Source of the DNA: Clavaria fumosa
Taxonomy: Eukaryota > Basidiomycota > Agaricomycetes > Agaricales > Clavariaceae
NCBI GenBank assembly: GCA_951802425.1
Contig: OX637794.1
Coordinates: forward strand, 1,550,001-1,614,000
Reading direction: 5' to 3'
DNA: 64,000 bases
Shown: positions 1-57,772 of the stretch, one piece after another
Layout of the letters: every line of letters starts with the position of its first letter
Numbering within the stretch: the first letter of the stretch is position 1
The notes under the pieces: generated by a model
Seen by the model: only the letters and a program-made list of their open reading frames with translations
What the model was told of the DNA's origin: nothing
The model's database searches: none
Translations under genes and position numbers: made by a program

Positions 1-2324
1 ACAATTTTTTTGGGGGTCACATATGAAAAACGTGAAAGTTTTACTGTCTAGAAACTGTTACAGGGGGTAATGACACATATACAGCGGTCAGAGCCTTTAA
101 CAGATTGAAAACTCGTCAATTAACCATAAGACTCAGTAGTGGAATTGGACGAAGAGACTGAAGACCTACTCCTCATCGGGGAGGAAGACCTCCATATTTG
201 CGGCCTGGTAGCACCGACATGGAGGCCCGAAGCGGTGAAGAGGCCACACGAAGGTGACCCGTCGCCGTGGCCCAATACGGTGGATCTTTCTTCGAAGAAT
301 CCGATGAGTTCCCCAGGACGTCACGAAGCTCGCTTGTTGACGGAGTCAGTAAAGGCATGAGAATGCAAAGAGGGAGAGCCGGCGGATTGAGTAAAACGTT
401 TGAGAGCATCTGGAGTTGCACTGAGAAGCCTCATCGCCGAAAAGGAGTGAGAAGTCAGACGATTTTGTACGGTGTCTCCACATTCGTGAGAGGTGATTCA
501 GGGCGAGTGTAGGTCAGCATCCAGGTCACCTTGTTGTAGCAGGGCCAAAATTGTCAGGAATGCTTTGAACAAAGAGAGAAGGTAGAGACATACTCAGGTG
601 AGGCTCGTAGGCGACTTACACTTGTAATGTTGACTTGCTCAGGCTATTGCTCCTGCTCGGCCAGATGTCCGTGCATTGCCCTTCCCATTTACGGTGGATG
701 ACGGACTGACACCCCCACACGTGCCTACAATAACGATGACAAAAACAACCATTACGGTCGGTCCAACTGCATCACGATGTCCGCTAGGGTGATGGTGAAC
801 GAAAGCCGACCACGCTTATGAGCAAGGGGGCCAGCAGTGTCGGGAGGTGCCAGGACGCCGCTACGTCTCCTTGCCAGTCATTGACATCAACCCCAGGACT
901 CTCGATATCCCATTGAATTTGATTGTAAACATAGATATTCCAGACCAGGCGAGGCGCCTTGGGACCTTCGCATGTGACGAACAATCTCCCACTTCCAGTC
1001 GACAAGCCCAAATCATTGTATGATGGGGAGATCCTACCAAGATTTTCCTGAGATTTTTCCGCTTCGACAAAGCACCTCTTGAATCGCCTCCAACACTCTT
1101 CAAATGGTCAGCGCGCAGCTGCGCCATGCGTTATGCCTAAGGTCCGCTCACTCAATCTGTACCATGGGCCAGAACAGGAGCCAGACATCGGACATCGGAG
1201 CTCTGCCAAAAGTGGGGAAATGATGCTTCGTGTATAATGCCGATGCATAAAAAGGAGATACGTATTAGTGACCATTCTTTTGCATGGAAAAATAAACCAA
1301 AGCGAGATGAAGAACCAACAGTCACATGGAAAAGAACCAGTACAAAAGGAGAAAAAAAAGGACAAATATTCATTGGCATAGACCGTTGGCATAGATGACA
1401 CGCACAAAGGTGCGATCCTTCTGTGTGTCTTCCTGTTCAAAGACTATGGGGCTTCGTGTTCAAACACTATAGGGCTTCGCCGTGCCGAGATGTCCATGCA
1501 CCAGTAGCCGTCGCACTACCAGCTCGAGCAACTTTTGTCGGTGCAAGCACCTTCAAGTTCACTGACCCCAGATACCGCTGCCATTCATCGAGCAGGGGGT
1601 GCCAGTAGCGGCTCGGAGGTGCCAAGTAGCGAGCAGGATTGGCTGTGAGCAGGGGTGCCAAGCAGAGGGTGCCAAATGGCGTTGGTTGCGACCCAGGGGT
1701 GCGAAGTGGAGACAGGTGGTATTGCCTGCAAGCAGGGGCAAACCAGCAATGAGCAAGCCACACCAGGCAGTGTGGGCAGTGAGCAAGTTAAGAGAAAGGG
1801 TGAGGTGTGATGACGAGGCCTACACATTCCCATGATCTGCGTTCCCGGGCTCGAGTACAGCAGACATGTTGGAGAGTGGTGTGCGGAGTCGGAGTAAAGC
1901 CAACCAAAAAGAGTCATTCCGATTATGTAATCTGTTGAAAATAATGTATTCCGAATAAGCGAACTTCCAACAACTTCCATGTCGGATATGAGAAAACCAT
2001 ATTTACACGAAGTGTTACAGGTGTTCGTATTGGCAAACAGCTAGTGGAGTAATGTACACATGCGGCACCAAATTTACAACCACACAACACTGCAAGATAG
2101 GATAACGTCATCTGACATGCCGCGTATTCCGATTTCCGTGGCTTGTTCCGTTGCTGATTTACTGCCCAGGAATGACAGGAACAGGAATGACCAGGTTGAA
2201 ACCTGGTGACATAGTATCAATGTTGAAGGTCCTTGTGCGCCTACCAGCCAGTGAGAATTGGTTCGCGGCGATGACTGGCGCTGTCACGAGGATCTAAACC
2301 CAATAACTCATTTTTCACATCTGC
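1..2324. other. No recognisable gene
   Basis: I find no exon chain or family motif here on either strand. Short open stretches exist, for example a minus-strand one around 784-1011, but none joins convincingly to a neighbour across splice sites. The only structure I see is the degenerate G-rich motif array described separately at 1590-1790. This could be eroded transposon sequence or the 3' flank of the MFS gene that ends at 2325. Confidence 0.4.
1590..1790. repeat. Degenerate short-motif repeat
   Basis: A GGTGCCAA-like octamer recurs at irregular spacing, often preceded by AGGG or CGGA and interleaved with GAGCAGG or GAGCAAG blocks. About seven imperfect copies fall within 200 bases. It is not a clean tandem repeat and no coding signal accompanies it. 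Confidence 0.4.
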
Positions 2325-4354
2325 ACCCGTGGCGGCACCCGACTTATTTGCCAGTAAATCGGGGATCCAGCCAATGAGATGCTCATCATCACCACAACCC
2401 AAAAGTGGCCACCGAGCAGGCCCCTGTCCACAGAGAGGACGAACATAGTGCTACGTTATGGGTAGTCAATCAATTAAATAGGACGCAGAAAGAGACAGCC
2501 AAGAGAAGCACCTCACGAACGTGGGCGCAACACCTCGCGCGATGCACATCGCACACATCATAATGCCGTTCGTTGCCCAAGATTCCCCTCTGGCGCAAGC
2601 GCCTTGCTCAGCATGACAGACAGCCTTTCCAATAATAATTCAAATAAGCAAAGAAAAAAGGCGGCTTCCTTGCGCAGCAGACTCACGCAAACGGGAGGCA
2701 CGCAACACGGATGAGCGCCAACACACCAAGAATGCCCGCCCATAGAAATGCTGGGGGCGCGCCGCTACGTGCCACAAGATTCAAGAATGGTAAAGAAGCG
2801 AACGCCAAAGGCCATAAGAGCATGCATGCGCAGAAAAGTGGCCCGCAGGAAAACCGCGCAAGCAGCGCGCGCAGCACGAACATCACGGATATCAATCCCA
2901 AGATGCCCGCCACTAGCATTGCGTACCCAATGCTCGAGGTCTAGTTAAGAAGCAAAAAGAAAAGGGTGAACACAGGAGAGGGCCCGCACAGCCGGGCAGA
3001 CCAAAAGAGTTTCTAAAGACTCACAGAAAAACCGAGTCCACCAGATGTAATGGGTGTGTAGCAGAAGAGCGCAAATATGACATCAAACGAGGTGTTCATG
3101 AAGTTGAGCAAGAATGCTGAGATACACAACGAACGGAGGATTGGAACTGACAATACGTCAAAGAAGGTTAGCAAAGGTTTTTGCTGTTGCTGTTGCCGTT
3201 GATCATCGCGGCTGGAATCGCCCGTCTCCACAGTGCCATATGAATGTCGATCGCTTTTCACCGTGTCTCGGCGCTTGCTAGGGAGGGTCTGGAAGGGTGA
3301 TAAAGCGTTCGCTCTGCGAGTAGTCAGAGCAACGAAATTAGGAAAGCCCGCACCTCTTCTAAGACGACATAACACGCAGTGAAGCCAAGCATCGCGATAA
3401 CAAATGTTAAGAAACAGGGTAGAAAATAAGGGTACACCCGGAAAAAGTGGAAATCGAATAGCTTGGGGAACTGTTTCGCCGGATTAGACAGCGTGCCTCC
3501 AATAGGTGGCCTGAAATTATCTTGCCAGTCAAATCGAGACGGAAAAATCTTCACTCTTCCAAGACGAGGAACGCACCCAATTATGTTACCGAACGGCCAA
3601 GCTAAACCGTAAAACGAGATGGCCATAGCTTCATTCGAAGGGTTTGTCATTTCCCCAAATACGGACTGCAGCACGGGGGTGTTGCCAGCAAACATCCCAG
3701 CTGTCAGAGGGAATGGGTGAGTTGGACATTTGAGCATTTTGAATTTTTGAGAGCGCACCGATGAATCGAGTGATCATGAGGCCGAGGAAAGACCTTGACA
3801 GCCCAAACAAGAGTGTCGACACGCCGAGTCCTGCTAGCCCGACAAGCACGACGGGACGTCTGCCCACAATATCTGTGACGGAAATTTGGATACAGTCAAA
3901 CTTGGAACGCCTGGAATGAAATGATTGTCGCACGCACCAGACACGCGAGCGAAGTGATATAGTGAGAACAACTGAGAAACAGCAAACGTGCTTTCCTGGA
4001 AGATTAAGAGACTTCAGAAGGGAACAAACATTGGAGAAGAAAAAAACACACGAGAATGCCGCTATAAAACCCGACCTGCGAAGGGTCATCCGCAATGTGG
4101 AGGCTCGCGACAAGCTCGTTCACATAGGGAAAAGCCTGGGAGTACGCGACTGGGTCGACGAGCCTTATCCAGCACAACGCCGCCAGCTGTGCGCCAAAAG
4201 ACGCTGACTTGTGAGGGCGGTTCCCCGAAGACGATGTGCAGCTCGTGTCGCCATCGTGCGAGATGAGAGATCGACGCTCCTGTGCCTCGCTGTTAGAGCC
4301 CAAATCATGGGCGGCGCTTTGGCCAAAAATTGGCGAGGACTCTTGGGCGATCAT
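2325..4354 (-). CDS. MFS transporter, upstream-copy paralogue, with one frame break
   Basis: This is a multi-exon major facilitator of the fungal tetracycline/ZIF-like group, a plasma- or vacuolar-membrane drug or metal/H+ antiporter type. The first exon carries the RLVDPVAYSQAFPYVNE helix. It is followed by the family signature DIVGRRPVVLVG near 3870, then GMFAGNTPVLQSV (about 3690), the PYFLPCF helix (about 3400) and SFDVIFALFCY (about 3080). The last exon (about 2325-2440) encodes LGGHFWVVVMM and ends at TGA 2325-2327. I chose ATG 4354 because the longer open frame to 4510 adds no conserved residues. The LSVMLSKALAPEGN exon must shift by one base near 2576-2578 to reach the conserved TNGIMMCAMCIARGVAP stretch. 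This is either a sequencing slip in a GGG run, a real lesion, or a use of a later acceptor that drops about 14 residues. It is a tandem paralogue of the gene at 5247-7288. The substrate is unknown. Confidence 0.8.
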
Positions 4355-5246
4355 GAAGGGCGGGGAGTCAAAAGCTGATTTTTCTATCTTCCATCTTCCA
4401 TCTTCCAAAACACGAGTGTCTTTATGTCCTGTGAATACATGGGGAACCAAACCCCAACTCGATTCATCATCGAGTGTCTTTATGTGTAGTAGGGGTCTAA
4501 AGCGTGACAACTCCTGATCACGCCTATGTTGATAAAGGTTGGATTCTGTGAGAACTGGCGATCGTCACCAGTGACGACGCCTCCACAGACCTTGCTCCGT
4601 TTCCTGCTATGTTTTTTTACTGGTGGATCTGCCACCAACAATCACGTCGGGATTCGGGAAGCATGCAAACGTGTGACATGAGATTGTCGGCGGCCCGGTA
4701 TCTTATCGGATGTGATGACCAAACATTACCAAAGGCCCAGAAAAATATCTAGACTTGCTTCATGTAGGTTATACAGTGACTTAAAACTGTTGCAATGCAA
4801 TGGTTTGACATTTTGAGTTAAATGAAGTAGCCACTTAAGGTTCCTGGTGTGACCATACTAATTGTACCAGTAAAACAAACAGCTGTAAAGTGTTCTTGGT
4901 CTGATTATTCAGCTCAAAAGATCCAGCCCAATACTCGGTGACCGCCGTGGTCTCCCCTCGATCGGTGTCACACACCCCCCGCCGGCGTGTCTTCAGGAAT
5001 ACAGTGGGAGTAACCTGGCAGAGATCACATAATACGCAATGTAAAAACCATATCTCCTGAGATAAAATACCTTCTTTAGAGAAGTGCAAAATGCATTTCC
5101 TGGGAGCGGACATCGATGGCCATCGTCTCGTGTACGTATGCAAAATTTATAGCTTCCCTAGCAACAAAGCAATCGGAGCGACGAACGCAAAACCATAAAA
5201 TCCCTAAAGAAATGTCTTCCAAGGAGCATAAAACAACCATCTGCAT
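4355..5246. other. Intergenic region between the two MFS genes
   Basis: This 0.9 kb stretch separates the stop of the second MFS gene from the start of the first. Both genes read on the minus strand, so it should hold the promoter of the 2325-4354 gene. I see no conserved coding frame, RNA gene or clear TATA box. Confidence 0.4.
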
Positions 5247-13573: not shown

Positions 13574-15170
13574 CTATTTTCTCCTTCCTTTCCTTCCTGC
13601 CGCAGCACTCGCAGGCGTCGTAGCACCGGCAGTCGTCATTGCTGTCAAGGGTTCAGCTACTCCCGGATTATCCACGCCAAATCCCTTGCTGGTGCACTCT
13701 GCACAGTAATATATGTCGGGTAACGGTGCCTTGACATTGACACACGTAATGTGGAACTGTTGTAACAAGGTAAAAAGGAATCAGCCTGAGTTAGATGAAA
13801 GCAGACAAGCAGACAGTGCGCATGCGCGTGTGTACATACCCACTGATAAGGACAATCTGGGTTGTCGCAAGCAATCATCTGATCAGAGGATGACATCCAC
13901 AAGGTCAAGCTTTGTATAAGAAAATAGAAAGGGTGTAACAAAAGCGCTGACCTCGCCATGGCTCATCTCCTGGCAAATGCAATAAATGCCCTTGTCTTCT
14001 GCCTCCTCCTCAGCACCCTCCGCCTCTTCATCATCTTCACCTTCCGCATCCATGTCCAAGTCTTCGTCCTCCTTGTCAGCTGCAACGGCGGCAGCGGCAG
14101 CGGTCACTGCCCCGCGTCGCCCTGCACCTCTCAGGTGCACCTGCTGAGAGAGTCGCGACCGCGCGTACGGCGCCGACGACCCTGATGCTGCGTGCACCGG
14201 CGGCGTCGGCGTCGGCAGCCGTGAGTGCGCTCCTGAACCCAGCTTCAGAGAGCCTTGCGCACCAAATTTGCGTCCTGTCGGTAAATCAATACAGAGATAG
14301 CGCAAGATAAATACCATCCAAAACAAATGGAAAGGCACACACTCTTCTGGGAAGCGGCTCCGATGGGGCTCGAGTCCCCCGACGCCGTCGACGGAGAAAG
14401 CGCAATCTTCAAACTCTCCGTAATCTGCGCCACTGGACTACCATCCAAAGCCAACAAAGGATAAAAAGGTCAAAAAAATCAACTGTTGGGCGAATAGACA
14501 CGCACCCAAGGATGGGGCCGCCGCCGACGGGTAAAGTAGTAGCACCATCCAAGCCGGGAACATCACCCTGGAGGATGCTCACTTTCGTCAGCTCGACGTC
14601 GAGACGTGCGCGGGCACGCATCAGCAGCGATACGAGTCGCTGCGCCAGCGCGACCTTTTCCGCCGCCAGTCGGTCCACCTCCATGTACGCCGAGTCGATC
14701 TTAGGCAGCAGCGCCTGGTCCTTTGCTTCTGCGGCTCCTGTGACCGGTGTCTCTGGGGGGACCCCGTTCTTGCCGCCATGTTGCGGTGCGTCCCCGAGCG
14801 GAGACTGTGGCGAGGGCGGAACCGGAGTGGTGGGAGACGACTGGCGGAGGGCGTGTCGCGTGTACCGGTTGCAGTCCCTTGCGATTTGTTGTTGAAGCTC
14901 TGCACGACCACGCGTGACGATGACGATGATAACGATAATGATAAATAGAGGGGAAGGGGGAGAATAAATGGAAGAAAAACCTTGCAATCGCTTCTCTTTG
15001 ACTTGTATCTCCTGCAAAAGGTGTCGAACCTCGCTTGGAAGGCTGTCGAGGCCTGGGATCAAAGAGATGCAACTAGCATGAAGGGCGGCGTGGCGAGCTA
15101 GGGGAGAACACTGACTGGAGATGAATTCTGAGGCGATTGCCGCTGCCTCTTCGAGGTTTGAAGCGCTCAT
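13574..15170 (-). CDS. ING-family PHD-finger chromatin protein
   Basis: This is an inhibitor-of-growth type histone reader, a subunit of acetyltransferase or deacetylase complexes such as NuA4 or Rpd3. The start at 15170 gives MSASNLEEAAAIASEF. After an intron come LDSLPSEVRHLLQEIQVKEK and ELQQQIARDCNRYTRHA, the ING N-terminal helical domain. A long low-complexity linker follows, with basic and acidic patches including a run of Glu/Asp near 14020-14080. The PHD finger is assembled from three exons: IYCICQEMSHGE, MIACDNPDCPYQW, and FHITCV plus IYYCAEC. This supplies the Cys4-His-Cys3 zinc ligands. The aromatic and acidic residues that read H3K4me3 (Tyr of IYCIC, Met/Ile-Ala-Cys-Asp, Trp of YQW) are present. 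The tail is basic (GRKGRRK) with stop TAG 13574-13576, as in ING proteins with a polybasic region. It faces away from the left M13 gene across 445 bp. Confidence 0.9.
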
Positions 15171-15615
15171 TCCTGGCTCTAGACAGTGTCTGGAACCAGC
15201 TTTATGGGACCCGACAGCTTCGGCCAAAATCACGTGACACGAACAACAGGCTTGCTTCAGTCAGTATTCACTATCAGCCACCCCCACACTTCGATCTCGT
15301 TTACAGCTCTCAGCGCCCTACATACTTAACATTTTACCTCGTGTAGATTTTAACGTGATGCGTCTGGTGTCTCGGCTATCCGTGCCTGCTACCGAATGCA
15401 ACATGCGTGTATCAGAACAATCAGGGCTGTCTGTTGTAAAGGCCATGCACTTTCCAGGACGCTTTCATGAATCTGAATGCACACGTGATGTGAAGAACCT
15501 CCGCACCGAGGTTGAAGCAAGGCGAGGTCAGCGCGCTGCACTGTTGACAATAAGCTGCGCTGTGCATTCGTACCGACCACCTTGCTGCTCACACTCTCGT
15601 CTCTAAAGAGCTACT

Positions 15616-18600
15616 ATGGATGAGCCGAGGCGCTCGACAGACGATGGTGAAGCCTTGGTCTGTCAGACTATACCCTGGCGTCGAACTGACTGTCTTAATT
15701 CTAGAACGAGATCCCCTTCTGGGTGACCACGTACAAGAATCACCCCCGCCCACCTTTCTCGAACGAGTCGCCGCTGTAACGCAAGAGCCCTTGACTCCGC
15801 TTTCACAGTTCCTTTTTATTGCTGTAATTGTTCTGCTCTTATTGAGCTCTGTCTTCATCGGGCTTTGGGCTGGAGTCAATCACAAGTTGAGACTAGAGAA
15901 AGAGAAACACGGCGATGGCGGGACTACTACACAAACTACTACCACTACCACTACCGTCATCCCGTCGATAACGACACATACAACGACGCAAGTTATGACG
16001 ACTACTTGGGCATCGACTGAAACAACGACAACAAGAACCACCGCCACGACAGTAATCCCAGCTCCCACTCCATCACCAACACAGGAAGTGAGTTAAGTCT
16101 CTTTCCAGTCGGGCTTCTAAATCGATTGCGTTGGCTTTCAGGTCTGCCTGTCTTCGCAGTGCATCCTTCTATCGGCGTCAATCTTATCTAGCATCGACAT
16201 CTCCCAGGATCCATGCGAGAGCTTCTATGACTTCGCCAGTGCGTTGCAGGAAAATATCCGAGTCGTACTACGCTAAAGATACTGGTATTAACAGATGGCG
16301 GTTGGCTCAATTCCCATGTTTTGCCTTCTGGCAAGGCCTCGTGGGGAATGTTCGAAATACTCGCCAACCAGAACGGACGACTGATACAAGAGATACTGCA
16401 AGCCAATTCTTCTATCTCCTCAGCACCGCACCATCCATTATCCCTTGAGCAGCTGGATTACGATGCATCTATTCTCAGCAAACTACGTGGACTATACAAC
16501 TCTTGCATGGATGAGAAACAACTCAATCATCTAGGGCAAGACCCATTGATACGCGTAGCCCGAATTGTGAGGAAGCTCTTTAGAGAAAAAGGAACGACAA
16601 TCGAACCTCAAAGTGAAGATGAAGATGAAAACATTCCTGTTGCCCAAGATCTTAAGGGAACCGGCTTGACTGCAGCCGTCGCCTATTTACATTCGAGAGG
16701 TATATCCTCAAGTCATTATTAAAGAGTAGAGCTGAGTGACGCTGTGCACACTAGGCATTGACGCTTTATTCGGCTATGAGATCGAGGGTGATTTGAAAAA
16801 GGATCCAAATCTATTCACACTCTGGTTCTTGCAGCCTCTTCTTGGCCTTCCATCCAAAGTAAGTACTATTCGTATAGGAGATCTTTGCAACAGGAAGTGA
16901 TTGGATCGTTATTGTAGGAATACTATAAAGACGAAGCTGTAGTGGAGCTCTATCAAGCAACTATAGAACGTCTCTTGTTCACACTTTTAGAAGGCATGGA
17001 AGATGAACTTGCGCCGACGCAGACGCCAATTTCCAAGAAAGAAAATTTGTTACAGCCGGTGGATTCACCAGTTTCCGAGACATGGCCTCCTTGGCCATGG
17101 CCGCCGTGGGGCAAGGACGGCGACGAAAAAAAAAGACACACCAATAACACTCAACGTGCGCGTGAATTGGCTAAGGAGGTGCTCGAGTTTGAGAACAAGA
17201 TCGCCAAAGCTAGCATGAACCACCGGTAAAACGCATCTACATCTCCCTCATGGATCATCTGACGGTACTCCGGGACCAGCGATATCATATCCGTCGACCC
17301 GCTTGCTACATACAACCCAATGCCGCTCTCGAACCTCTCCACGGCGGTGCCCCAAATTCACTTCGGGGATTATCTTTCCGCATTCTATCCACACTCCTTT
17401 CCTGCTGAAGTCATTGTGGCTCAGCCGGCTTACTTTGCTACTCTCCCGTTCATCCTGGAAGACACTGGTAACGATACCGTCGAGGCGTACCTCCTGACGC
17501 GTGCTGCTCTTCAGCTTGCGCCCTTACTGAGCCCTGAGACAGAAGCTTGGAAAGCTGTGCGCGCGCTCAATGAGAAGCTGGGCGGGCTCAAGAAGGGCGC
17601 AGTTGTAGATCGCGCAGAATTTTGTGTGGAGCACGTCGAGCGCGCCATGGGTTACGCTGTGGGCAGATACTTTGTGCAAATGAAGTTCCCCGAAAAATCG
17701 AGAGAGAAAGTTACGAAAATTATCACAGGTGGGGGTCGCGTTTCCCAATCAGAAACTGCCCAATTGACTGAGCTGTACAGACGTTGTGAAGTCGTTCAAC
17801 GAACGCCTGCCCCTTTTGAAATGGATGGATGAGGAATCCGCCACAGTGGCTGCAGAGAAGGTGATGAGCCAGCATTTCCTCGTTTAAGCAGCGACTGACC
17901 GACCGTAGGCTGATGCAATCCGAGTCAAAGTTGGATTCCCGCTTTCTCCGGACCTCCGGGATCCAAAGAGCATTTACATGTTTTACCTCCCGCTCAAGAT
18001 CCGTGACGACGCGTTCTTTTTGAACTTACTCACAGCTGCGTGCGTTTTGTCCCCTACAGAGTTAGGTGACATTTTCGCTGACTAAAGCACCTCAGCTCGA
18101 TTGAGGTGTCGAGAGAGTGGCTGCAATTAGGAAAGAGGCGGAATCCGGACAGCTGGGATCTTGCCCTCTCAACCAAGGCACTGTTCCCATCAACTTGGAG
18201 GATGTTCCCCTCAACCGTCAACGCCGAATTCATACCTCCTGCCAATGAGGTGTGAACTTCCCCAAACTCTCCGCTTTCGCTTAAATTCCTTGTCAGATCG
18301 TGTTCCCCGCAGGAATTCTTCTGCCACCCTTCTTCTCGCAGGAATGGTGAGACTTTATCATGTGGTTTAGATTATTTAGCTCATTGATCATGCTGTCTCC
18401 CTAAAGGCCTGGGTATATTTCATATGGGGCGTTCGGGTCTGTCGCCGCCCATGAGTTGACGGTATGTCTTCTCCGTGCAAATGTCCCCGTGATACTTCAA
18501 TTTCTATCTCAGCATGCTTTCGATTCAAGTGGAAGGTTGTACAATCAACACGGGAAGCTAGAGAAATGGTGGTCAGACTCCACCTCGGAAGGGTTCAAAG

Positions 18601-19357
18601 TCAGGCAAGATTGTATCGAGAAGCAATTTTCAGGTATGCATATCACCCCGCCTTGAGTATGGTGTTAACGACAATGATAAGAGTACACGGTCGATGATGG
18701 GAAAGGAGGCCACATTCATGTCAATGTACGTCGTCTTATTCTCGTTGTGGCATTCGTCGTTTACATGTGAATAAACAGGGTAGTCTGTGCGTGCTGTCGC
18801 TTGATATCAACTACGCCGTGAGCTTCGCTGATCCCTGCATACTAATAGAACCTCTGGCGAAAACATTGGCGACTCTGGTGTCATTCATAGCTACAACGCT
18901 TGGAAAGCTCAGTTCCACACTTCGCTCGAGGCTGGAACTGAGTATCTTCTTCCCGGATTGAACTTCACTAGGCGGGTCTTTCGCTCCTTCTCTCGACTCG
19001 TCCTTTGCTGAAGGTAGAGCCACGTAAAGAGAGCAACTTTTCTTCGTCTCGTTCGCGAGAATCTGGGCCGAGAAGAGCACCCCTGCCAACGATGTGAGTC
19101 CGAACGATAGCTCTTGCTCCTTGGTCTGACCACAAGGGTTTCAGGTACGAAGTGTATTCACGGACCCACATTCGCCGCCCAGACATCGTGTAGATGGGAC
19201 GATGCGCAACATGCCGGAGTTCGCGAAGGCATTCCGCTGTTCTCCCAATGCCAAGGTGAATTCCTTTGTCTGTCTGAGTGATTCATGTGTTCGGCTCACG
19301 AAGCGAGAACAGCTGAATCCGCCTATGGAGAAGCGCTGTCTCTTCTGGCAAGATTGA
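15616..19357 (+). CDS. M13 (neprilysin-like) zinc metallopeptidase, left copy
   Basis: This is a type II membrane endopeptidase of the neprilysin/endothelin-converting-enzyme family. Exon 1 is short (15616-15646, MDEPRRSTDD). Exon 2 has LLGDHVQESPPPTFLERVAA, one membrane helix (FIAVIVLLLLSSVFIG) and a Thr-rich, probably O-glycosylated stalk. The ectodomain starts with Cys-containing LSSQC and DPCESFYDFANGGW. Later exons carry RELAKEVLEFENKIA and PQIHFGDYL. VNAEFIPPANE (18216-18248) and IVFPAGILLPPFF follow. The zinc site is split by an intron as HELT at 18450-18461 and HAFDSSG from 18513. GENIGDSG supplies the third ligand Glu, and HRVDGTMRNMPEFAKAF is the substrate-pocket element. The C-terminus LNPPMEKRCLFWQD is the standard M13 ending, with TGA 19355-19357. 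Compared with the right copy it has 27 extra in-frame bases just before VNAEF. All exons join in frame, so it is probably active. Confidence 0.9.
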
Positions 19358-19470
19358 TGGGGACAGAAATGTGCAGGATCGCAACACTGTTGTTAACTTA
19401 TTATTATCAGATACAATCGTTTTGTGATGTACGACCCGGGCGTCGAGGTGGTTCGCGTAAAGCAAACACT

Positions 19471-19573
19471 CTAGATTTCAAGAACCCCTTTTGTGCTTGG
19501 CACATCGTCCCCTCCCGTTTTCTCTATTGCTTGACGGATCGCCAACGCCAGAGCCTTGAAAGCGGGCTCAGCG
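19471..19573 (-). pseudogene. Duplicated last exon of HIS3
   Basis: The minus strand here repeats the 103-nt final exon of HIS3 (20784-20886). It has the same CAG acceptor and reads [20 protein letters not shown], ending in a TAG at 19471-19473. It differs from the functional exon by a Ser to Pro change and by Ile instead of the last Met. Part of the preceding intron is present to about 19630, and nothing of the other exons remains. It is a 5'-truncated by-product of the inverted duplication and cannot make a dehydratase. Confidence 0.85.
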
Positions 19574-19640
19574 CTGCGATTCTGATTGGCCAAGAATTGC
19601 ACGGAGGGTAACATTCATCCCACTGTGCTTCGCGTACCAG

Positions 19641-20024
19641 CAATGAAGTCACGTTGTATCCTGGTTGCATTCACAAGATGCTTTGATTGATCCGGACGAT
19701 CTCTACTCATATTGAGCCAAACCGAGTCCCGTATCTAATCTTTGATACATTTGAGAGGTGTGCCTAGTCGTAGCTTATTCTATAGAGTGGGCATAAAGAC
19801 ATTATTATATGTACCAGCCTGGCATCTCATCTAGCATTGCTTGTAATCAGTTTGATCATTTCGTAGTATAGTCATTTTGTGACGTTGTAGGCGGGTGCCT
19901 GCACGGAATGTTACATGGACGGCGGGAAAGTTGATGGCGGGCACATTGACGGCGAGTAGATAAAGGTTACGGTCACACCCTATTATGAGGCCAACTGTGG
20001 CTGATCGATCACTTCTGCAGGAGG
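19641..20024. promoter_or_regulatory. HIS3 upstream region in the repeat centre
   Basis: These 0.4 kb are single-copy and lie directly upstream of the HIS3 start. They contain three near copies of a TGACGGCGGG-like decamer between about 19918 and 19957. I find no perfect TGACTC element of the Gcn4 type and no clear TATA box. The promoter role is inferred from position only. Confidence 0.4.
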
Positions 20025-20886
20025 ATGTCCCAAGACGCGTCGGCTGTGCCCTCAATGGCTCGATGCGCCACAATCTCGCGGAAAACCAAGGAAACTGATA
20101 TCCATGTCAACCTAGTCCTGGACGGTGCATCTGGTTCGAGTTCAGAGTCTGTTCTCGACATCTCCACAGGAATTGGATTCCTAGACCATGTGGGTGGCAT
20201 CCCTTGCAATGTTTTGTGCGCTCGGGCCTTCACCGTCCATGAATGTAGATGTATACGGCGCTTGCGAAGCACAGTGGGATGTCCCTGCAGATGAAGTGTC
20301 AAGGCGACCTTTGGATCGACGACCATCACACTGCAGATGAGCATCTGGCTTTTGTTCGCACATTTGCCCGCGCCTTTGCCTGACATTGTCATTACAGGAC
20401 AGCGCACTCGCTCTCGGGGCTGCATTCAAACAGGCCCTGGGTGAGATCAGGGGTATTCGCAGGTACGGGACCGGCTTTGCCCCGCTAGACGAGGTAAGCA
20501 GCCCTCCCTCTCTTTCGTTGCGCGTCTCAACCATACCGGGTTTCCCAAGGCGCTCTCTAGAGCAGTCATCGACATCTGCTCGCGCCCATACTGCGTGACC
20601 AATCTCGGCCTCAAGCGCGAGAAGATCGGCGATCTCTCAACAGAGATGGTCAGTCATGTCTTCCATTCTTTCGCCATGGCGGCCGGCGTGACCCTCCACG
20701 TCGACGTTCTACGAGGCGAGAATGACCATCACCGGTACGTGAATGTCACCCTCCGCGCGATTCTTGGCCAATCAAAATCGCAGCGCCGAATCCGCTTTTA
20801 AGGCTCTGGCATTGGCGATCCGTCAAGCAATAGAGAAAACGGGAGGGGACGATGTGCCAAGCACAAAAGGGGTTCTTGAAATGTAG
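20025..20886 (+). CDS. HIS3: Imidazoleglycerol-phosphate dehydratase
   Basis: This enzyme catalyses dehydration of imidazoleglycerol phosphate in histidine biosynthesis (EC 4.2.1.19). It is cytosolic and manganese-dependent. Exons are 20025-20189, 20249 to about 20337, 20398-20493, 20550-20734 and 20784-20886, or about 212 residues, normal for fungi. Key motifs are [15 protein letters not shown] then [14 protein letters not shown], the metal-binding [34 protein letters not shown], and [16 protein letters not shown] with [16 protein letters not shown]. The tail [14 protein letters not shown] is the usual IGPD ending. The junction after DDHHTA lacks a GT donor where the family needs one (see findings). 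The last exon lies inside the right repeat arm while exons 1-4 are single-copy. It converges with the right M13 gene, with about 107 bp between stops. Confidence 0.9.
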
Positions 20887-23800
20887 AGTTTGCCTTACGC
20901 GACACATCCTCTATGCCCAGGTCGTACATCACAAACCGATCGCGTCTGATAATAATAAGTTAACAACGATGTGCGATCCTGTTCATTTCCCCATCAATCT
21001 TGCCAGAAGAGACAGCGCTTCTCCATAGGCGGATTCAGCTGTTCTCGCTTCGTGAGCCGAACACATGAGTCACTCAGATAGATAAAGGAATGCACCTTGG
21101 CATTGGGAGAACAGCGGAATGCCTTCGCGAACTCCGGCATGTTGCGCACCGTCCCATCTACACGATATCTGGGAGGCGAATGTAGGTTCGTGTATACCCT
21201 TCGCGCCTGAGACCCTTGTGGTTAGACCAAGGACTGTGTGGGAGCAAGAGCTTTCGGACTCACATCGTTGGCAGGGGTGCTCTTCTCGGCCCAGATTCTC
21301 GCGAACGAGACGAAGAAAAGTTGCTCTCTTTACGTGACTCTACCTTCAGCAAAGGACGAGTTGAGAGAAGAGCGAAAGACCCGCCTAGTGAAGTTCAATC
21401 CGGGAAGAAGATACTCATTTCCAGCCTCGAGAGAAGTGTGGAATTGAGCTTTCCAAGCGTTGTAGCTATGAATGACACCAGAGTCGGCAATATTTTCGCC
21501 AGAGGTTCTGTTTGCATGCAGGGATCAGCGAAGCTCACGGCGTCGTTGATATCAAGCGACAGCACGCACAGACTGCCCTGTTTATTCACATGTAAACGAC
21601 GGATGCCACAACGAGAATAAGACGACGTACATTGACACGAATGTGGCCTCCTTTCCCATCATCGACCGGGTACTCTTATCATCGTTGTTACTATAACACC
21701 ATACTCGGGGGCGGAGTGATATGCATACCTGAAAATTGCTTCTCGATACAATCTTGCCTGACTTTGAACCCTTCCGAGGTGGAGTCTGACCACCATTTCT
21801 CTAACTTCCCGTGTTGATTATATAACCTTCCACTTGAATCGAAAGCATGCTGAGATAGAAATTGAAGTATCACGGGAACATTTGCACGGAGAAGACATAC
21901 CGTCAACTCATGACCAGCGACAGACCCGAACGCCCCATATGAAATATACCCAGGCCTTTAGGGAGACAGCAGGATCAGTGAATCACATAATCTAACCCAC
22001 ATTATAAAGTCTCACCATTCTTGCGAGAAGAAGGGTGGCAGAAGAATTCCTGCGGGGAACAGCATCTGAAAAGGAATTTGAGCCAAAGCAGTGGGTTTAG
22101 GAAAGTTCACACCTCATTGGCAGGAGGTATGAAATCGGCGTCGACGGTTGAGGGGAACATCATTGAGAAGGGAATATGCCAGCTGTCTGGATTCCGCCTC
22201 TTTCCTAGTTGCAGCCACTCTCTCGACACCTCAACCGAACTGAGGTGCTTCAATCAGCGAAGATATCATCTGACTCTGCAGAGGAGAAAACGCACGCAGC
22301 TGTGAGTAAGTTCGAAAAGAACGCGTCGTCACGGATCTTGAGCGGGAGGTAAAACTTGTAAATGCTCTTTGGATCCCGGAGGTCCGGAGAGAGCGGGAAT
22401 CCAACTTTGACTCGGATTGCATCAGCCTATGATCGGTCAGTCGCTGCTTACATATGCGAGAGGAAACGCCCTCTCATCACCTTCTCTACAGCCACTGTGG
22501 CGGATTCCTCATCCATCCATTTCAAAAGGGGCAGGCGTTCTTTGAACGCCTTCACAATGTCTGTACAGCTCGGTCCATTAAGCAATTTCTGACTGGGAAA
22601 CGCCGACCCTTACCTGTGATAACTTTCGTAACTTTTTCTCTCGATTTTTCAGGGAACTTCATTTGCACAAAGTATCTGCCCACAGCGTAACCCATGGTGC
22701 GCTCAACGTGCTCCACGCAAAATTCTGCACGATCTACAACCGCGCCCTTCTTGAGCCCGCCCAGCTTCTCATTGAGCGCGCGCACAGCTTTCCAAGCTTC
22801 TGTCTCGGAGCCCAGTAAGGGCGCGAGCTGAAGAGCAGCACGCGTCAGGAGGTAGGCCTCGACGGTATCGTTAGCAGTGTCATCCAAGATGAACGGGAGA
22901 GTAGCAAAGTAAGCCGGCTGGGCCACAATGACTTCAGCAGGAAAGGAGCGTGGACCGAATGTGGAAAGATAATCCCCGAAGTGAATTTGGGGCACCGCCG
23001 CGGAGAGGTTTAAGAGCGGCATTGGGTTGTATGTAGCAAGCGGGTCGACGGATATGAAATTGCTGGTCCGGAATACCGTCAGATAACCCCATGAGAGAGA
23101 TGTAGATGCGTTTTACCGGTGGTTCATGCTAGCTTTGGCGATCTTGTTCTCAAACTCGAGCACCTCCTTAGCCAATTCACGCGCACGTTGATTGTTATTG
23201 GCGTGTCTTTTTTTGTCGTCGTCATCCCTGTCCCACGGCGGAGGAAGCCACGTCTCGGAAACTGGTGAATTCACAGACTGTAACAAATTTTCCTTTTTGG
23301 GAATTGGCGTCTGCGTCGGCGCATGTTCATCTTCCATGCCTTCTAAAAGTGTGAACAAGAGACGTTCTATAGTTGCTTGATAGAGCTCCACTACAGCTTC
23401 GTCTTTATAGTATTCCTACAATAATGAATCAATCACTTCCTGTTGCAGGGTTCTCCTATGCGAACGGTACTTACTTTGGATGGAAGGCCAAGAAGAGGCT
23501 GCAAGAACCAGAGTGTGAGTAGATTTGGATCCTTTTTCAAATCACCCTCGATCTTAGAGCCGAATAAAGCATCAATGCCTGATGTGCACAACATCACTCA
23601 GCTCTACTCTTTAATAATGACTTGGGGACATACCTCTCGAATGTAAGTAGGCGACGGCTGCAGTCAAGCCGGTTCCCTTAAAATCTTGGGCAACACGAAT
23701 GTCTTCATCTTCACTTTGAGGTTCGATTGTCGTTCCTTTTTTCTAAACAGCTTCCTCACAATTCGGGCTACGCGTATCAATGGGTCTTGCCCTAGATGAT

Positions 23801-24964
23801 TGAGTTGTTTCTCATCCATGCAAGAGTTGTATAGTCCACGTAGTTTGCCGAGAATAGACGCATCGTAATCCAGCTGGCCAAGAGGTAATGGATGGTGCGG
23901 TGTTGAGGAGATAGAAGAATTGGCTTCCAGTATCTCTTGTATCAGTCGTCTGTTCTGATTGCCGAGTGTATCGAACATTCCCCATGAGGCCTTGTCAGAA
24001 GGCAAAACATGGGAATTGAGCCAACCGCCATCTGTTAATACCAGTATCTTTAGCGTAGTACGACTCGGATACATTCATAAAACGCACTGGCGAAGTCGTA
24101 GAAGCTCTCGCATGGATCCTGGGAGATGTCGATGCTAGATAAGATTGACGCCGATAGAAGGATGCACTGCGAAGACAGGCAGACCTGAAAGCCAACGCAA
24201 TCGATTTAGAAGCCCGACTGGAAAGAAATTTAACTCACTTCCTGTGTTGGTGATGGAGTGGGAGCTGGCATCACTGTCGTGGCCGTGGTTCTTGTTGTCG
24301 TTGTTTCAGTCGATGCCCAAGTAGTCGTCATAACTTGCGTCGTTGTATGTGTCGTTATCGACGGGATGACGGTAGTGGTAGTGGTAGTAGTTTGTGTAGT
24401 AGTCCCGCCATCGCCGTGTTTTTCTTTCTCTAGTCTCAACTTGTGATTGACTCCAGCCCACAGCCCAATGAAGACAGAGCTCAATAAGAGCAGTACAATT
24501 ACAGCAATAAGAAGAAACTGTGAAAGCGGAGTCAAGGGCTCTTGCGTTACAGCGGCAACTCGTTCAAGAAAAGTGGGCGGGGGTGATTCTTGTACGTGGT
24601 CACCCAGGAGGGGATCTCGTTCTAAAATTAAGACAGTCAGTTCGACGCCAGGGTAAAGTCTGACAGACCAAGGCTTCACCGTCATCTGTCGAGCGCCTCG
24701 GCTCATCCATAGTAGCTCTTTAGGGACGAGAGTGTGAGCAGCAAGGTGGACGGTACGAATGCACGACAGCGCAGCTTGTTCCAACTTTCAACAATCCTCC
24801 TTGCCTTGCTCCGACCTCCGGCGCGGAGGTTCGTCACATCACGTGTGCATTCGATTCATGAAATTGTCCTGGAAAGCGCATGGCCTTTACAACAGACAGC
24901 CCTGGTTGCCCAGTATGAGACCCGACTTATACGATAGTGGTAATTGAATGAGGTTGCATTCGGT
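20738..24964 (-). repeat. Right arm of large inverted repeat
   Basis: This is the reverse-oriented partner of 15391-19640. It begins inside the last intron of HIS3 and ends at GTTGCATTCGGT (24953-24964), 76 bp before the MSS51 start codon. It contains the last HIS3 exon and the complete right M13 gene with its promoter. The central unrepeated spacer between arms is about 1.1 kb, which makes the whole structure a 9.6 kb imperfect palindrome. Confidence 0.9.
20994..24710 (-). pseudogene. M13 zinc metallopeptidase, right copy, frame-broken
   Basis: This is the inverted paralogue of 15616-19357 with the same exon plan, from ATG 24710 to TGA 20994-20996. The membrane helix (FLLIAVIVLLLLSSVFIG), Thr-rich stalk, zinc site HELT|HAFDSSG (about 21920 and 21850), GENIADSG and the C-terminal exons are all preserved. 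In the exon near 23740 an AGAGAAAAAGG of the left copy is AGAAAAAAGG here, one base shorter. The frame then runs into a stop within about 25 codons, before the catalytic domain. The left copy's VNAEF is VDADF here (about 22139-22147), replacing the Asn that contacts substrate backbone in this family. Loss of function is the simplest reading. A homopolymer sequencing error at 23737-23742 would leave an intact but altered enzyme. Confidence 0.8.
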
Positions 24965-25040: not shown

Positions 25041-26888
25041 ATGTCTCCCGCGTTGGTCACCGCGATCAGACCATCCGTGCGGTTGTTGGCCAGCGCCCGT
25101 TCTCGTCGACAATGTCTCGGCGTGAACCGCGGTCTCGCGCGTCGCCCGTTGGGCAGTCTGTTCCAGAGGATCAAGGAGAAGCTCACTCTAAAACGCGATC
25201 CAACGCCCACGCTTTCCCCGGAAAACCTCTTCCATCCCTTTTCTAAGTCGCCTTTCCCCGCTATCAGGGAGCGCGGCGAAGCCATTAAAAAATTGGCGCC
25301 TTGTCCGGTCTGCGTCGCTGAGAGCCCTGACGTGTACACGTCGCCCAAAGCGGTCACCTTCGAATGCCCGGAGTGCGGGTGGCCCACGCACTGCTCCGAA
25401 GAGCATTGGGCAGGAGACGAGGAGCATAAGAAGTACTGCTCGAGACTGCGAGAGGTCAATGAGGACGACCATGACTTAAGAAGCGGACGGCGGGTGTGGG
25501 AATTCGAATTTCCAGGTGCGCCTTGGTGTACCCAAACGCTGTTCGCTCGAACTTGCCTTGATCGGTCCGGTCCACAGGCCCGCAGCCATTTGAGGAAACC
25601 ATCTCCTTTGCCAACTGGGACGTGTTCTGGTACACCCGACAGTTCCCGTCGATGGACACGGAGCGTTCCCGACGGCACGTCAGCAAGGTGCTCACATACC
25701 CACTCACCATCGGATCCGTTCTCCACCAGTACAGCAGCCTCACCACCAGCAACCAGCGCGTCACGCCTGAGGGGAGCCGGTCGCTAGCTGGTGCGCCGAC
25801 CCGTTTTTATTCCTTTTTTGCGATTTGAAAAAACCCACCCGTGAATGAGGTCCTTAGCGCTTCGTTCCACGCTGCACGTACCGACCGGGGCCCCGGAGGC
25901 CAACGACGCTAAGCTGGGCGAAGTCCGTGTGTTCGTTCTCGGTGCACGCGCCGAGTCCTCGTTGCCGCCGCATTGCTGGGACCAACTATCCCTGCTATTC
26001 CCCTCCGCGCACTTACATGTCCATTTTGTCGGACCGCAGGTAGCATTGCCGAAGGCCGCCGCGGAGCCGCCGTCAAAGGAATCTCTGTCTGACAAGACAA
26101 AACCGCCCATACCTGACGCCTCGACTAAGCCTGAGCCTACGACAAACACAAGTAAGGACCATACTGCATCGTCTCAAGTGGATGTTTCTTCAGCATCGAG
26201 CCTTGCCAATACCGCATCGTCGTCGTCGTCAGCTGCAGCCAATGCCTCCCAACATGGCCCCTCTACAGCAGTTGCGGAGACGGATAAGAAATCCTCGTAT
26301 ATTCCAAACGTCTACGAGCCAGCGACTCCGGCACTCATAGCGCAACATAAATGGACGCGCGATTCTATTCAGCGCTACGGAGTTCCTTCGTATACGAATC
26401 CATACAAGATGGAGCTGACGCTCAGCGGCTTACGGACAGACTACATGCAGGTGCACGAGCTATTCCAAGAGACGTACGACCCGTACTCGGACGTGTTCTT
26501 CTTCTTCTCGCCGGGGTTCGGGTTCCCCTCACCAACAAGCGTGTCCGAAGAGACGGGCGAGCCGATGCTGCAGATCGCGTCGCCAACGGAATGGGGCCCG
26601 GTGCTGCCCGCACTGCTGGCGACGAAATGTGCGATCTTCGTGACGGGGTTTTCTCCGGCGGACGTGGAGCGAGACGTCAAGTCGCTGTCGGCTGCCCCGG
26701 GCGTGGCTGGACAGTTTGACTGGATCGTCACGCCAGGTCCGAACCCTTTCGGGAGCGAGAAGTGGGAAGTGGCGGATTTTGACCCTAGGGTGATGGTCAA
26801 GGTTAACTGGGGGATCTGGGGGATCAGAGGCAAGAGTCGAGACATCAAGGAGAGGAAAGGATTTGATTGGCTTCGCTTGAAGGGCTGA
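25041..26888 (+). CDS. MSS51: Mitochondrial COX1 mRNA translational activator Mss51
   Basis: Mss51 couples translation of mitochondrial COX1 mRNA to assembly of cytochrome c oxidase at the inner membrane. Three exons (25041-25515, 25578-25790, 25858-26888) give 572 residues. The N-terminus is basic and Ser-rich, as expected for a mitochondrial presequence. A zinc-finger region follows: CPVCVAESPDV, then ECPECGWPTHCSEEH and HKKYC, a MYND-like Cys/His set. The family core is FANWDVFWYTRQFPSMDTER, VLTYPLTIGSVLHQ and LRSTLHVP. The C-terminal half has the DYMQVHELFQ and VFFFFSPGFG segments, and ends in NWGIWGIRGKSRDIKE. A Ser/Thr/Ala-rich insert of about 90 residues (about 26080-26290) separates the core from the C-terminal domain. 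ATG 25041 was chosen because it begins the presequence and lies just outside the repeat arm. Confidence 0.92.
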
Positions 26889-54575: not shown

Positions 54576-55989
54576 ATGTCCAAAGGTGTCCTCTCTGGCG
54601 ACACCGACATGGCATCTCTGCCGTCATTCTTTGATGCCTCTACATGTACACGCAAAGGCCTCTGCCCGATTGGGCGCAAGGATGACCCCTCGATCGTGAG
54701 CCATTCGTTGTACTACGAGCAGCATGGGAACGGCCCACAGAGAGTTATCTTCATCATGGGGTACGCGCCCTACTCTTATATCGTCGATGAAGGCCGCTGT
54801 TCTTACATGCAAGCATTGCAAACATCAACAATAGGTTGAACGCTACTTGTTGGGCGTGGAAAGACCAGGTTGAGCGCTTTGGAAGAGACAGCGAGTATTC
54901 GGTCCTTGTTTTCGACAATAGGGGCGTTGGCAACAGCGACGCGCCCATCGGTCCATACTCGTGCGCGGATTCTTCGTTTTATTTTACAATAAGGATCCTG
55001 ACAAAGAGTGCGGTAAGGACAAGCGATATGGCAGAAGACTCCATCGCGTTGCTGGAGTATCTAGGCTGGACCGACGGACGGGACCTCCATGTCGTGGGGA
55101 TCTCCATGGGCGGCATGATTGCCCAGGGTACTGTGTCTCTCAAAGATCCCTATCCTGTATCCATTTGCTCAATATTTTATGCACAGAATTGGCTTTACGT
55201 ATCCCATCACGCATACTCTCCCTTACGCTTGCTGTGACGCGCGCAGAGGCACCCCCGTGGACTGATCACCGACCTGTGCGTTGTTCTGCTTCGAATCATC
55301 GTTTCCACTTTCTGACGTCTGGCGCAACAGTTGCGAAGCCTCTTCTCCATAATTCGGTCTGTCGCGTACCGTGCTCTGTTCTGCATCGTAAAAATTCAAC
55401 GCCTTGCGCAGAATCATGCTCTTGAGAGATCCGTATGCCAGGATTCCTTTAGCGCTTTCTAAACTCTTCCCGGAAGCTTGGCTCGACGCGAAAGCAGAAG
55501 GCGACCCGCGAGGAAGGACCAACAGGCAAGTACAAGCCGAGGTATGCGTTCTTTTTGTCTTCAGCCCCATCGTCGAGATCAAATGCATTGTTTTGATAGC
55601 TCTATGTCCAACGCATCTCGTGCACGCGTCCACAGACGCTCGTTGGCGCGTTCTCGCAGTTATGGGCGGGCAGTACGCACTATCTCTCTCATCAGCGGCT
55701 TCAAATGCTCGGGCAGGCGATGCCGAAAGTGCTGGTGATTACGGGGGACGATGACGCATTGGTGACACCTATCTGCAGTGAGCGGCTTGCAGAGGGACTA
55801 CGTGGCGGCGCGAAAGAGACAATGGGCGGCGTGGACGGGAACAAGAATATGGCGAACCACATTGAGCTGCTGATTTGGGAGAAGACGGGACACGGGATAC
55901 ACGCTCAGTGGCCTGAGCGGTTCAACGCGACGCTGGAGAGAGTATTCCGGGAGGGGACGAAGGCGGCGAAGGACGGAATGGTGTCGTGA
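54576..55989 (+). CDS. Alpha/beta hydrolase, first tandem copy
   Basis: An alpha/beta-hydrolase-fold esterase or lactonase-like enzyme. ATG 54576 gives [20 protein letters not shown]. Conserved features are [17 protein letters not shown], then [12 protein letters not shown] with the oxyanion loop and [15 protein letters not shown]. The exon [17 protein letters not shown] precedes the nucleophile elbow [12 protein letters not shown] (Ser). The lid region includes [20 protein letters not shown] and AWLDAK, then [10 protein letters not shown]. The C-terminal core has [20 protein letters not shown] and [14 protein letters not shown] (acid), with the catalytic His in [14 protein letters not shown]. 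Stop TGA is 55987-55989. All three catalytic residues are present. The substrate is unknown. The exon around 55225-55400 is unclear and may include an unspliced intron. Its paralogue follows 310 bp downstream on the same strand. Confidence 0.82.
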
Positions 55990-56299: not shown

Positions 56300-57772
56300 A
56301 TGTCGTCAATTGCCCTCGGCTCTAACGACGACGACGCGGTTGCTCGTCAAGACCTCGACATCATCGGTGCCTTCACAGAGTTCTTTGACTCATCGACCTG
56401 TGTCCACAAAGGTCTTTGTCCTGTAACGAAGATACGCCACCAGCAGCTCGATGTACTGCCCCCGCAGAGCCACTCGCTCTACTTTGAGCAGCATGGCACT
56501 GGTCCAGAAAAACTGCTCTTCATCACCGGGTGCGTCCCTTCCGAAACGAAACGGTCGACGGCGGCCGGCTAGCTAAAGCGGATATCGTTCGCAGACTGAA
56601 CAGCAGCATGTTTGGCTGGAAGGAACAAGTAGATTACTTCGGAAGCCACGGCGGCTACTCTGTCCTTGTTTTCGACAATAGAGGCGTCGGGAACAGTGCG
56701 ACTCCCAAAGGCCCATATACGTGTGTAGTCGTCTTGTCGCTGATTATTCCATGCCGGCTGACGCGTTAGCAGCACGAGTGGCATGGCGGAGGACGTCATT
56801 GTGCTTTTAGATTCGATCGGTTGGACAGAGCCGCGCAGTGTTCACGTAGTAGGCATGTCTCTTGGAGGCATGATCGCGCAAGGTAGATGTTGTGTGCATT
56901 GTTACACCAATGAGAACAACAACATATTTCTATCTCATCAGAGCTGGCGACCAGGATACCCGATCGTATAATATCCCTCATGTTGGCCGTGACCACGCCT
57001 GGTGGAAGAGTATGGAATAACTTTCCATCCGTTTGTTTTCTTCGTTTCGTATTACACGATTGAAAAGATGACTTAAACGTCTCATTTTTAGTGGAGAGGA
57101 GTCGTTGCCTTAACGAGGCTCGTGACTTGCTACCGGAATTCATCTGTTTTTGACTGATCAAATGATAGATTGCTAGCCGTGTCGGATCCAGCCATCAAGA
57201 TACCCATTCTTCTAGACGTGTCGTACCCCGCTTCCTGGCTTGATGCACCTGCAAACAATGACAAGAAAGGGAGAACAAATCGACAAGTGCAAACAGAAGT
57301 GCGCCTCCGTTTTTGTTCAGGCAATTCAAGTATCATTCTGAGGCGTTTCCTGACCGCGTGGTAGCTCTACCGGCACCGCATAGCGTCCACCAGGCGCCAG
57401 ACCCTGGTCGGATCCGTGTCCCAGATGTGTGCCGCGCTCACGCACTATGTGTCACCTGTGCGCCTGCGGAGTATCGCGCTCGACGTATCGAGGGTGACAG
57501 TGGTCACGGGAGACGAAGACTGGATGGTGCATCCGAGTGGGAGCGAGCGGGTCTGGGAGGCGCTTGTCGGCGAGGACGCTCGCACTGAGGTAGGGAGGAA
57601 GGTTCTGGCGTTCGGGGGCGTCCTTGGGAACGTGGAGCTGGTCAGGTGGGAGGGGACGGGCCATCCGATACATCTTCAGTGGCCTGAGAGGTTCAACGAG
57701 TTGCTCGAGCGGATGGTCAAGGATGCAAGAGAGATAATTGACGCGATAGATGCCACGACCCAGGATATTTAA
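56300..57772 (+). CDS. Alpha/beta hydrolase, second tandem copy
   Basis: Paralogue of the preceding gene with the same exon plan. ATG 56300 gives MSSIALGSNDDDAVARQDLD. Motifs are [69 protein letters not shown] and the Ser elbow VGMSLGGMIAQ. The lid exons carry LAVTTPGGRVWNNFPS, WRGVVALTR, then LAVSDPAIKIPILLDVSYPAS and [12 protein letters not shown] 57-nt intron then leads to LYRHRIASTRRQTLVGSVSQM. The acid is in VVTGDEDWMVHP and the His in WEGTGHPIHLQWPERF, with stop before 57773. The join between VVALTR and LLAVSD (about 57118-57170) has no clean GT donor in the right phase. It may use GC or may carry a small defect. Confidence 0.8.

Follow-up and report, generated by a model that had tools for sequence, protein, structure and literature searches.

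An inverted DNA duplication of an M13 peptidase gene around HIS3 in the agaricomycete Clavaria fumosa

The window considered here, a stretch of 64,000 nucleotides from the agaricomycete Clavaria fumosa (assembly GCA_951802425.1, contig OX637794.1, positions 1,550,001 to 1,614,000), contains two reverse-complementary arms of about 4.2 kb, each carrying a 19-exon gene for an M13 metallopeptidase, and between them the 5′ part of HIS3, the gene for imidazoleglycerol-phosphate dehydratase. Taken as a whole, the locus is very probably best explained by an old, single and local inverted duplication of DNA, with selection on the copies and with HIS3 left whole and safe against a flip of the centre. 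Among inverted segmental duplications it is an ordinary one of moderate age, albeit neat in its geometry. Its principal parts are as follows (coordinates are those of the window; M13-L and M13-R denote the left and right peptidase genes):

15391-19638, plus strand: left arm, comprising the outer flank, M13-L, the M13-HIS3 intergenic stretch and a copy of the HIS3 tail (BLAST core 15418-19617; the outer 12-mer is weak, and the inner GGTACG was assigned by eye).
15616-19357, plus strand: M13-L, a complete M13 metallopeptidase gene of 19 exons and 920 amino acids (gene model; Pfam PF05649, E 3e-86, and PF01431, E 6e-58; motifs HELTH and GENIGD).
19639-20733, no strand assigned: unique centre, holding the HIS3 promoter region and exons 1-4 (self-BLAST and shuffle-scored comparison).
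20025-20886, plus strand: HIS3, 5 exons and 212 amino acids, the sole copy found (profile match and gene model).
20734-24964, minus strand: right arm of the inverted repeat (BLAST core 20740-24908; low-gap-cost alignment; inner edge by eye).
20994-24710, minus strand: M13-R, the second copy, with the same 19 exons and intron borders and one 1-nucleotide deletion in exon 4 that shifts the frame (gene model and alignment to M13-L).

Self-BLAST of the window returns a single long inverted pair, 15418-19617 against 24908-20740, with 91.9% identity over 4225 columns, in agreement with the original prediction, made from the letters of the window, of an inverted duplication with arms of about 4.2 kb and a by-eye identity of 90-95%. 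An ungapped repeat search breaks the pair into 15 blocks of 86-100% identity each, and when gaps are made cheap in the alignment the match extends out to 15391 and 24964; the outermost 12-mer (15391-15402) is weak, its score being reached by 11 of 1000 shuffles. The introns are 90.2% identical between the arms and the region beyond the M13 stop 90.5%, so that an alignment check for similarity confined to exons, which the prediction had proposed, did not refute the duplication. Since everything from exons and introns to the flanks and the end of HIS3 is present twice, the copying took place at the level of DNA, and the proposed reversed block of HIS3 tail, M13 gene and promoter is supported in this form. 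These reverse-complement copies, introns and flanks included, lie between unlike surroundings: an ING-type gene adjoins the left arm and an MSS51-like gene the right, with no mutual self-match in the window at E 1e-5. Used as a query against the 48.8 Mb genome (17 contigs), the right arm matches at least two places, namely both arms; this count, like that for the M13 profile below, is a lower bound. Within the unique centre, a comparison for extra HIS3 homology was negative (best score 19, against a shuffle mean of 18.5 and maximum of 28).

The duplicated genes encode members of peptidase family M13, as judged from the M13_N and M13 domains of Pfam, matched for the left copy, and from the HELTH (HExxH) and GENI motifs, present in both. 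Additionally, M13-L has an N-terminal membrane anchor and a Thr-rich stalk (read by eye). Among the matches listed, full-length Agaricomycete homologues are about 49-55% identical to M13-L, and its best solved relative is ECE-1 (3dwb, E 8e-92), with ECE-1 and neprilysin being nearest. Like endothelin-converting enzyme 1 and neprilysin, the protein has both Pfam M13 domains and the HExxH and GENI motifs, and unlike them it is a fungal form with a Thr-rich stalk. An M13 profile search of the genome gave at least four matches among five scored candidates, every one an exon of these two genes. All 18 intron borders of M13-L, where 17 introns are GT-AG and one is GC-AG, are retained in M13-R; the GC-AG intron (18972-19029, partner 21384-21328) is thus preserved in both copies. 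The claim of a whole M13 gene in each arm holds for the extent, with 19 exons on either side, but not for the reading frame, which in M13-R is shifted by a deletion that had gone unmentioned. This deletion adjoins a run of A upstream of the catalytic domain, and it would be either recent or an assembly error beside that run. Besides it, the coding sequences differ by indels of 6, 9 and 27 nucleotides, so that three of the four are multiples of three. Comparison with 115 of the 120 listed homologues (five were removed on length) indicates that the 9-nucleotide gap is a loss in M13-R, where three residues present in 98-99% of them are missing, and that the 27-nucleotide difference is mostly an insertion in M13-L, eight of its residues having no counterpart in any.

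The age of the duplication and the forces acting on the copies can be read from their divergence. Between the M13 coding sequences, synonymous divergence (dS) is 0.092 and nonsynonymous divergence (dN) 0.034, giving an omega of 0.37 (bootstrap 0.27-0.54), and the introns differ by a Kimura two-parameter distance of 0.107. The stop-to-stop intergenic stretch has diverged by about 0.152 and the HIS3 last-exon copy by about 0.061 (borders three bases off); the value of 0.21 for the 5′ flank is inflated by poor gapping, realignment showing several indels there. An unconstrained copy that had changed at 5% of its positions would be expected to carry a mean of 4.6 stops, and only 1.3% of 2000 simulated copies carried none. 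M13-L has no stop, and neither does M13-R when read in register with M13-L (12 gapped and 5 lesion codons excluded), which argues that M13-R was probably selected for most of its life and that the frameshift either arose recently or is a mistake of assembly. Purifying selection would thus have acted on both copies for most of their history, as suggested by the omega of 0.37 and by the lack of other stops.

The inner edge of the duplication falls within HIS3 itself. Gene model and self-BLAST agree with the original prediction in placing HIS3 across the inner boundary of the right arm, and the left arm holds the last intron and last exon of HIS3 in reverse:

20735-20783, plus strand: HIS3 intron 4, containing the inner edge of the right arm (self-BLAST and gene model).
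19471-19573, minus strand: orphan copy of HIS3 exon 5 with an open frame (by eye, six differences in 103 bases from the live exon, two of them Ser to Pro and Met to Ile).
19616-19633, minus strand: exact 18-nucleotide match to HIS3 exon 2 (20264-20281) in the left copy of intron 4 (score 36, against 28 for the best of 200 shuffles).

In the orphan exon, Pro stands where Ser occupies the position in all 114 readable HIS3 homologues (6 of 120 were unreadable), which suggests that this exon has not been in use lately. The scrap of exon 2 is preceded by GGTACG and succeeded by TGAATG in the left copy, and since these two words abut in the live intron 4, the simplest reading is that 15 nucleotides copied from exon 2 were inserted between them. 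On that simplest reading, the insert would mark replication template switching. A deletion of 456 bp in the left HIS3 tail had been considered and was superseded, as a templated 15-nucleotide insertion in intron 4 fits the flanking words better.

As to mechanism, direction and order of events, we infer the following course. A block running from HIS3 intron 4 through exon 5 and the convergent M13 gene to the promoter of the latter would have been duplicated in inverted orientation beyond HIS3, likely through replication template switching, given the scrap of exon 2 in the left copy of intron 4. Both M13 copies would then have evolved for the most part under purifying selection, with M13-R frameshifted later, unless this is an assembly error beside the A-run. 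HIS3 stays whole in this course of events.

This arrangement bears on what recombination between the arms could do. Because both arms carry intron 4 (from 20740) and exon 5, an inversion of the centre places exons 1-4 in front of the exon 5 of the opposite arm. In silico, a full HIS3 of 212 amino acids was rebuilt at all six crossover points tried; its tail was the same as at present in four and differed by one or two residues in the other two. HIS3 would survive such an inversion, judging from these reconstructions, and the concern that it might cost histidine prototrophy was not borne out. An essential biosynthetic gene is thus enclosed by an inverted duplication at little risk: the edge lies in the last intron, and inversion should be harmless. 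It is conceivable, if unlikely, that HIS3 here is an invertible housekeeping gene, a cassette of promoter and exons 1-4 that works either way between two oppositely oriented copies of the gene's last intron and exon, and whose orientation may be polymorphic in the species or its relatives. If so, a flip would silently change which C-terminal exon is used and what lies next to the promoter. The locus could also serve to measure the frequency of arm-to-arm inversion in a fungus, since orientation can be scored by polymerase chain reaction and the expected fitness cost is low.

Several points weigh against a single duplication followed by selection. First, the structure is read from the assembled sequence, and the frameshift at the A-run could be a sequencing error, both of which would suit an assembly artefact, whether from a read folded back on itself or from a second haplotype joined in by mistake. 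Yet a fold-back should yield near-identical arms, whereas 8% of positions differ here; the outer flanks are different genes, the centre is unique and the window lies inside a contig of 5.29 Mb. An artefact is therefore highly improbable. Second, the 18-nucleotide match might be a deletion scar between exon 2 and intron 4, which is possible. Third, among the 29 differing columns with conservation of 70% or more, M13-R has changed at 14, M13-L at 11 and both at 4; both copies would appear to have drifted about equally, and because the changes are so nearly equal, neither is certain to be functional.

Fourth, the intron differences are slightly uneven (variance p 0.039), as might be expected if the palindrome were maintained by ongoing gene conversion between its arms. 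Per intron, the differences range from 1 to 10: five of the 18 (introns 1, 2, 12, 14 and 16) differ by just 1-2 bases and seven by 8-10. When all columns from 15600 are taken, with exons and introns mixed, the longest identical run has p 0.043 and the variance exceeds that of all 2000 shuffles. However, this heterogeneity is barely significant in the introns, where the longest run has p 0.44, and neutral divergence stands at 0.09-0.11; exons alone give p 0.16 and 0.23, and no convincing conversion tract was seen. Furthermore, maintained palindromes are reported to be more than 99% identical (PMC3723533, PMC8981503), as opposed to 91.9% here, short of the roughly 99% that would mark an arm pair kept alike by conversion. 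Ongoing maintenance by conversion thus appears improbable. The original prediction had offered continuing conversion as one explanation for the identity of the arms, which is not borne out by intron differences this near to uniform; continuing homogenisation is not supported by the sequences, and an old, partial conversion is possible.

Finally, the gene order of relatives points to an additional event beyond one duplication, in which HIS3 alone or HIS3 together with M13 was inverted. The neighbours concerned are:

13600-15171 (approximate, by eye), minus strand: left neighbour, an ING-type gene (Pfam PF12998, E 3e-7; open reading frames).
25041-26888, plus strand: right neighbour, an MSS51-like gene of 3 exons and 572 amino acids (gene model; homologues with PF13824 and PF20179).

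Linkage was counted over species common to both listings, taking genes as linked when on the same contig, that is, on contigs of equal size. From the best 120 rows for each gene, 105 were used for M13, 92 for HIS3 and 115 for MSS51; those lacking an organism name were set aside, as were two from Lentinula aff. detonsa and one for HIS3 that gave no contig. M13 and HIS3 are linked in 33 of 35 species, M13 and MSS51 in 51 of 55, HIS3 and MSS51 in 30 of 35, and all three in 20 of 23, so by this count the three genes form an old neighbourhood, linked in most of the Agaricomycetes compared. In Hohenbuehelia grisea, the only relative that directly shows HIS3 in the middle, the gene tags run M13 013522, HIS3 013523 and MSS51 013524. 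The tags of M13 and MSS51 are exactly two apart in Fibroporia, Ephemerocybe, Amanita phalloides, Tricholomella and Tricholoma furcatifolium, the intervening gene not being seen. Elsewhere they are adjacent (Hericium), four apart (Panaeolus), five apart (Psilocybe cyanescens) or about a hundred apart (Amanita inopinata), and HIS3 lies 32-47 genes from M13 in Panaeolus, Volvariella and Amanita polypyramis.

The presence of the stop-to-stop intergenic stretch in both arms makes the convergent HIS3/M13 pair the original one, as first proposed. Which arm is new depends on the local ancestor. If M13-HIS3-MSS51 was ancestral and M13 and HIS3 were convergent, then the left M13 would be in its old place, the right M13 would be an added, inverted copy, and HIS3 would have been turned by recombination between the arms, now using the tail of the newer arm. 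This tentative refinement draws on the tag order in H. grisea and the five species with tags two apart, on the strong linkage of M13 with HIS3 and with MSS51, on the integrity of HIS3 after the in silico flip, and on the frameshift, which sits in the copy that would be new. Set against it are the Pro of the orphan exon at an otherwise invariant Ser, the adjacency of M13 and MSS51 in Hericium and the distant HIS3 of the three genera just named; moreover, the relatives are known by tag order, not by orientation, and HIS3 is directly in the middle in H. grisea only. If instead the local ancestor was HIS3-M13-MSS51, the left arm would be new, added in front of the HIS3 promoter with the ING gene on its outer side, as first proposed, and nothing would have turned. 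Here HIS3 would never have moved, its exons 1-5 are contiguous with the right arm only, and the fewest events are needed given that ancestor; the gene order in H. grisea speaks against it. The idea of the left arm as the added copy therefore keeps the support of contiguity and loses that of gene order. The two orders are about equally probable.

Under either order, an old, single inverted duplication would have parallels among known systems. Inverted tandem segmental gene duplications, or disjoined palindromes, likewise consist of reversed multi-kilobase copies, introns and flanks included, around a short unique centre; unlike in a disjoined palindrome, the centre is here the 5′ portion of a housekeeping gene that has its terminal exon in both arms. 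The geometry is also that of the foldback inversions and inverted duplications of yeast (PMC7467729, PMC10622511), although the cases in these papers are fresh and come from yeast test systems, disease or cancer, whereas this one is old (dS 0.09). Large inverted repeats are shared with the palindromes of the Y and X chromosomes (PMC3723533, PMC8981503), but the arms here, at 92%, are not homogenised.

A whole HIS3 requires an AT-AC intron, a need absent from the original prediction:

20337-20395, plus strand: HIS3 intron 2, read with AT-AC borders, splitting the Glu codon of the HHxxE motif (ATGAGC...CATTAC, protein motif and homologues).

HIS3 was located at one place in the genome (three exon matches, a count that is a lower bound). 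Its IGPD domain (PF00475) matches at E 1e-57, scored on an earlier model that lacked the Glu, and its best homologues are 85% identical among the matches listed. In the HHxxE motif, the Glu serves as a metal ligand. When only GT-AG introns are allowed, intron 2 is left without a donor and the protein without this Glu; the AT-AC reading (ATGAGC...CATTAC) yields HHTAEDSALALG and 212 amino acids, with the motif present as HHTAE. A broken HIS3, with the intron 2 donor and the Glu lost, was rejected since the same border type recurs in homologues. Among the best 120 homologous HIS3 entries, the residue at this position is Glu in 62, Asp in 57 and Gln in one, so that 58 of the 120 lack the Glu; the 62 that bear it are uninformative on intron type. 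The residue that follows Asp is D, N, K or E in 48 of the 56 readable entries, as would result from GAT with AAG or GAG after it, or from a false GT donor preceded by ATAA or ATGA; the 48 fit an ATRAG donor, and the I, T or M of the other 8 requires a different one. Intron 2 would thus be spliced at AT and AC, and this AT-AC intron probably recurs widely across the HIS3 genes of Agaricomycetes and is often mis-modelled there, which matters for the annotation of histidine biosynthesis in mushrooms. The intron may be of the U2 type, with no need of the minor spliceosome: U2 small nuclear RNA was found in the genome; U12 small nuclear RNA was not, in a search that also gave no match in any control genome. 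A HIS3/M13 duplication in inverted form and an AT-AC intron in HIS3 are both absent from the titles and abstract openings listed in literature searches that covered few subscription journals. At its C-terminus (20880-20886), HIS3 ends in ...STKGVLEM, compared with ...STKGVL in 117 of the 120 listed homologues.

In the window and a further 200 kb, 264 kb altogether, the palindrome is the strongest self-match, not the sole one, and local duplication in both orientations is recurrent. A 2.2 kb unit occurs 11-28 kb to the left of the palindrome in three copies at 91-94% identity, of which two are direct and the third is inverted (window 2213-4427; contig 1547665-1549882 and 1537054-1539244). One of its reading frames weakly resembles major facilitator superfamily transporters, below the Pfam cut-off, and a direct pair of 2.0 kb at 88% lies between copies of the unit. 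An inverted match of 3.5 kb at 85% has its two ends 135 kb apart (contig 1510208-1513718 versus 1648746-1652253), and both its ends overlap self-matches offset by 126 bases, as from tandem arrays. Inside the window, the sole other self-match at E <1e-5 is a short direct repeat, 54848-54936 versus 56609-56696, with 78% identity over 89 columns.

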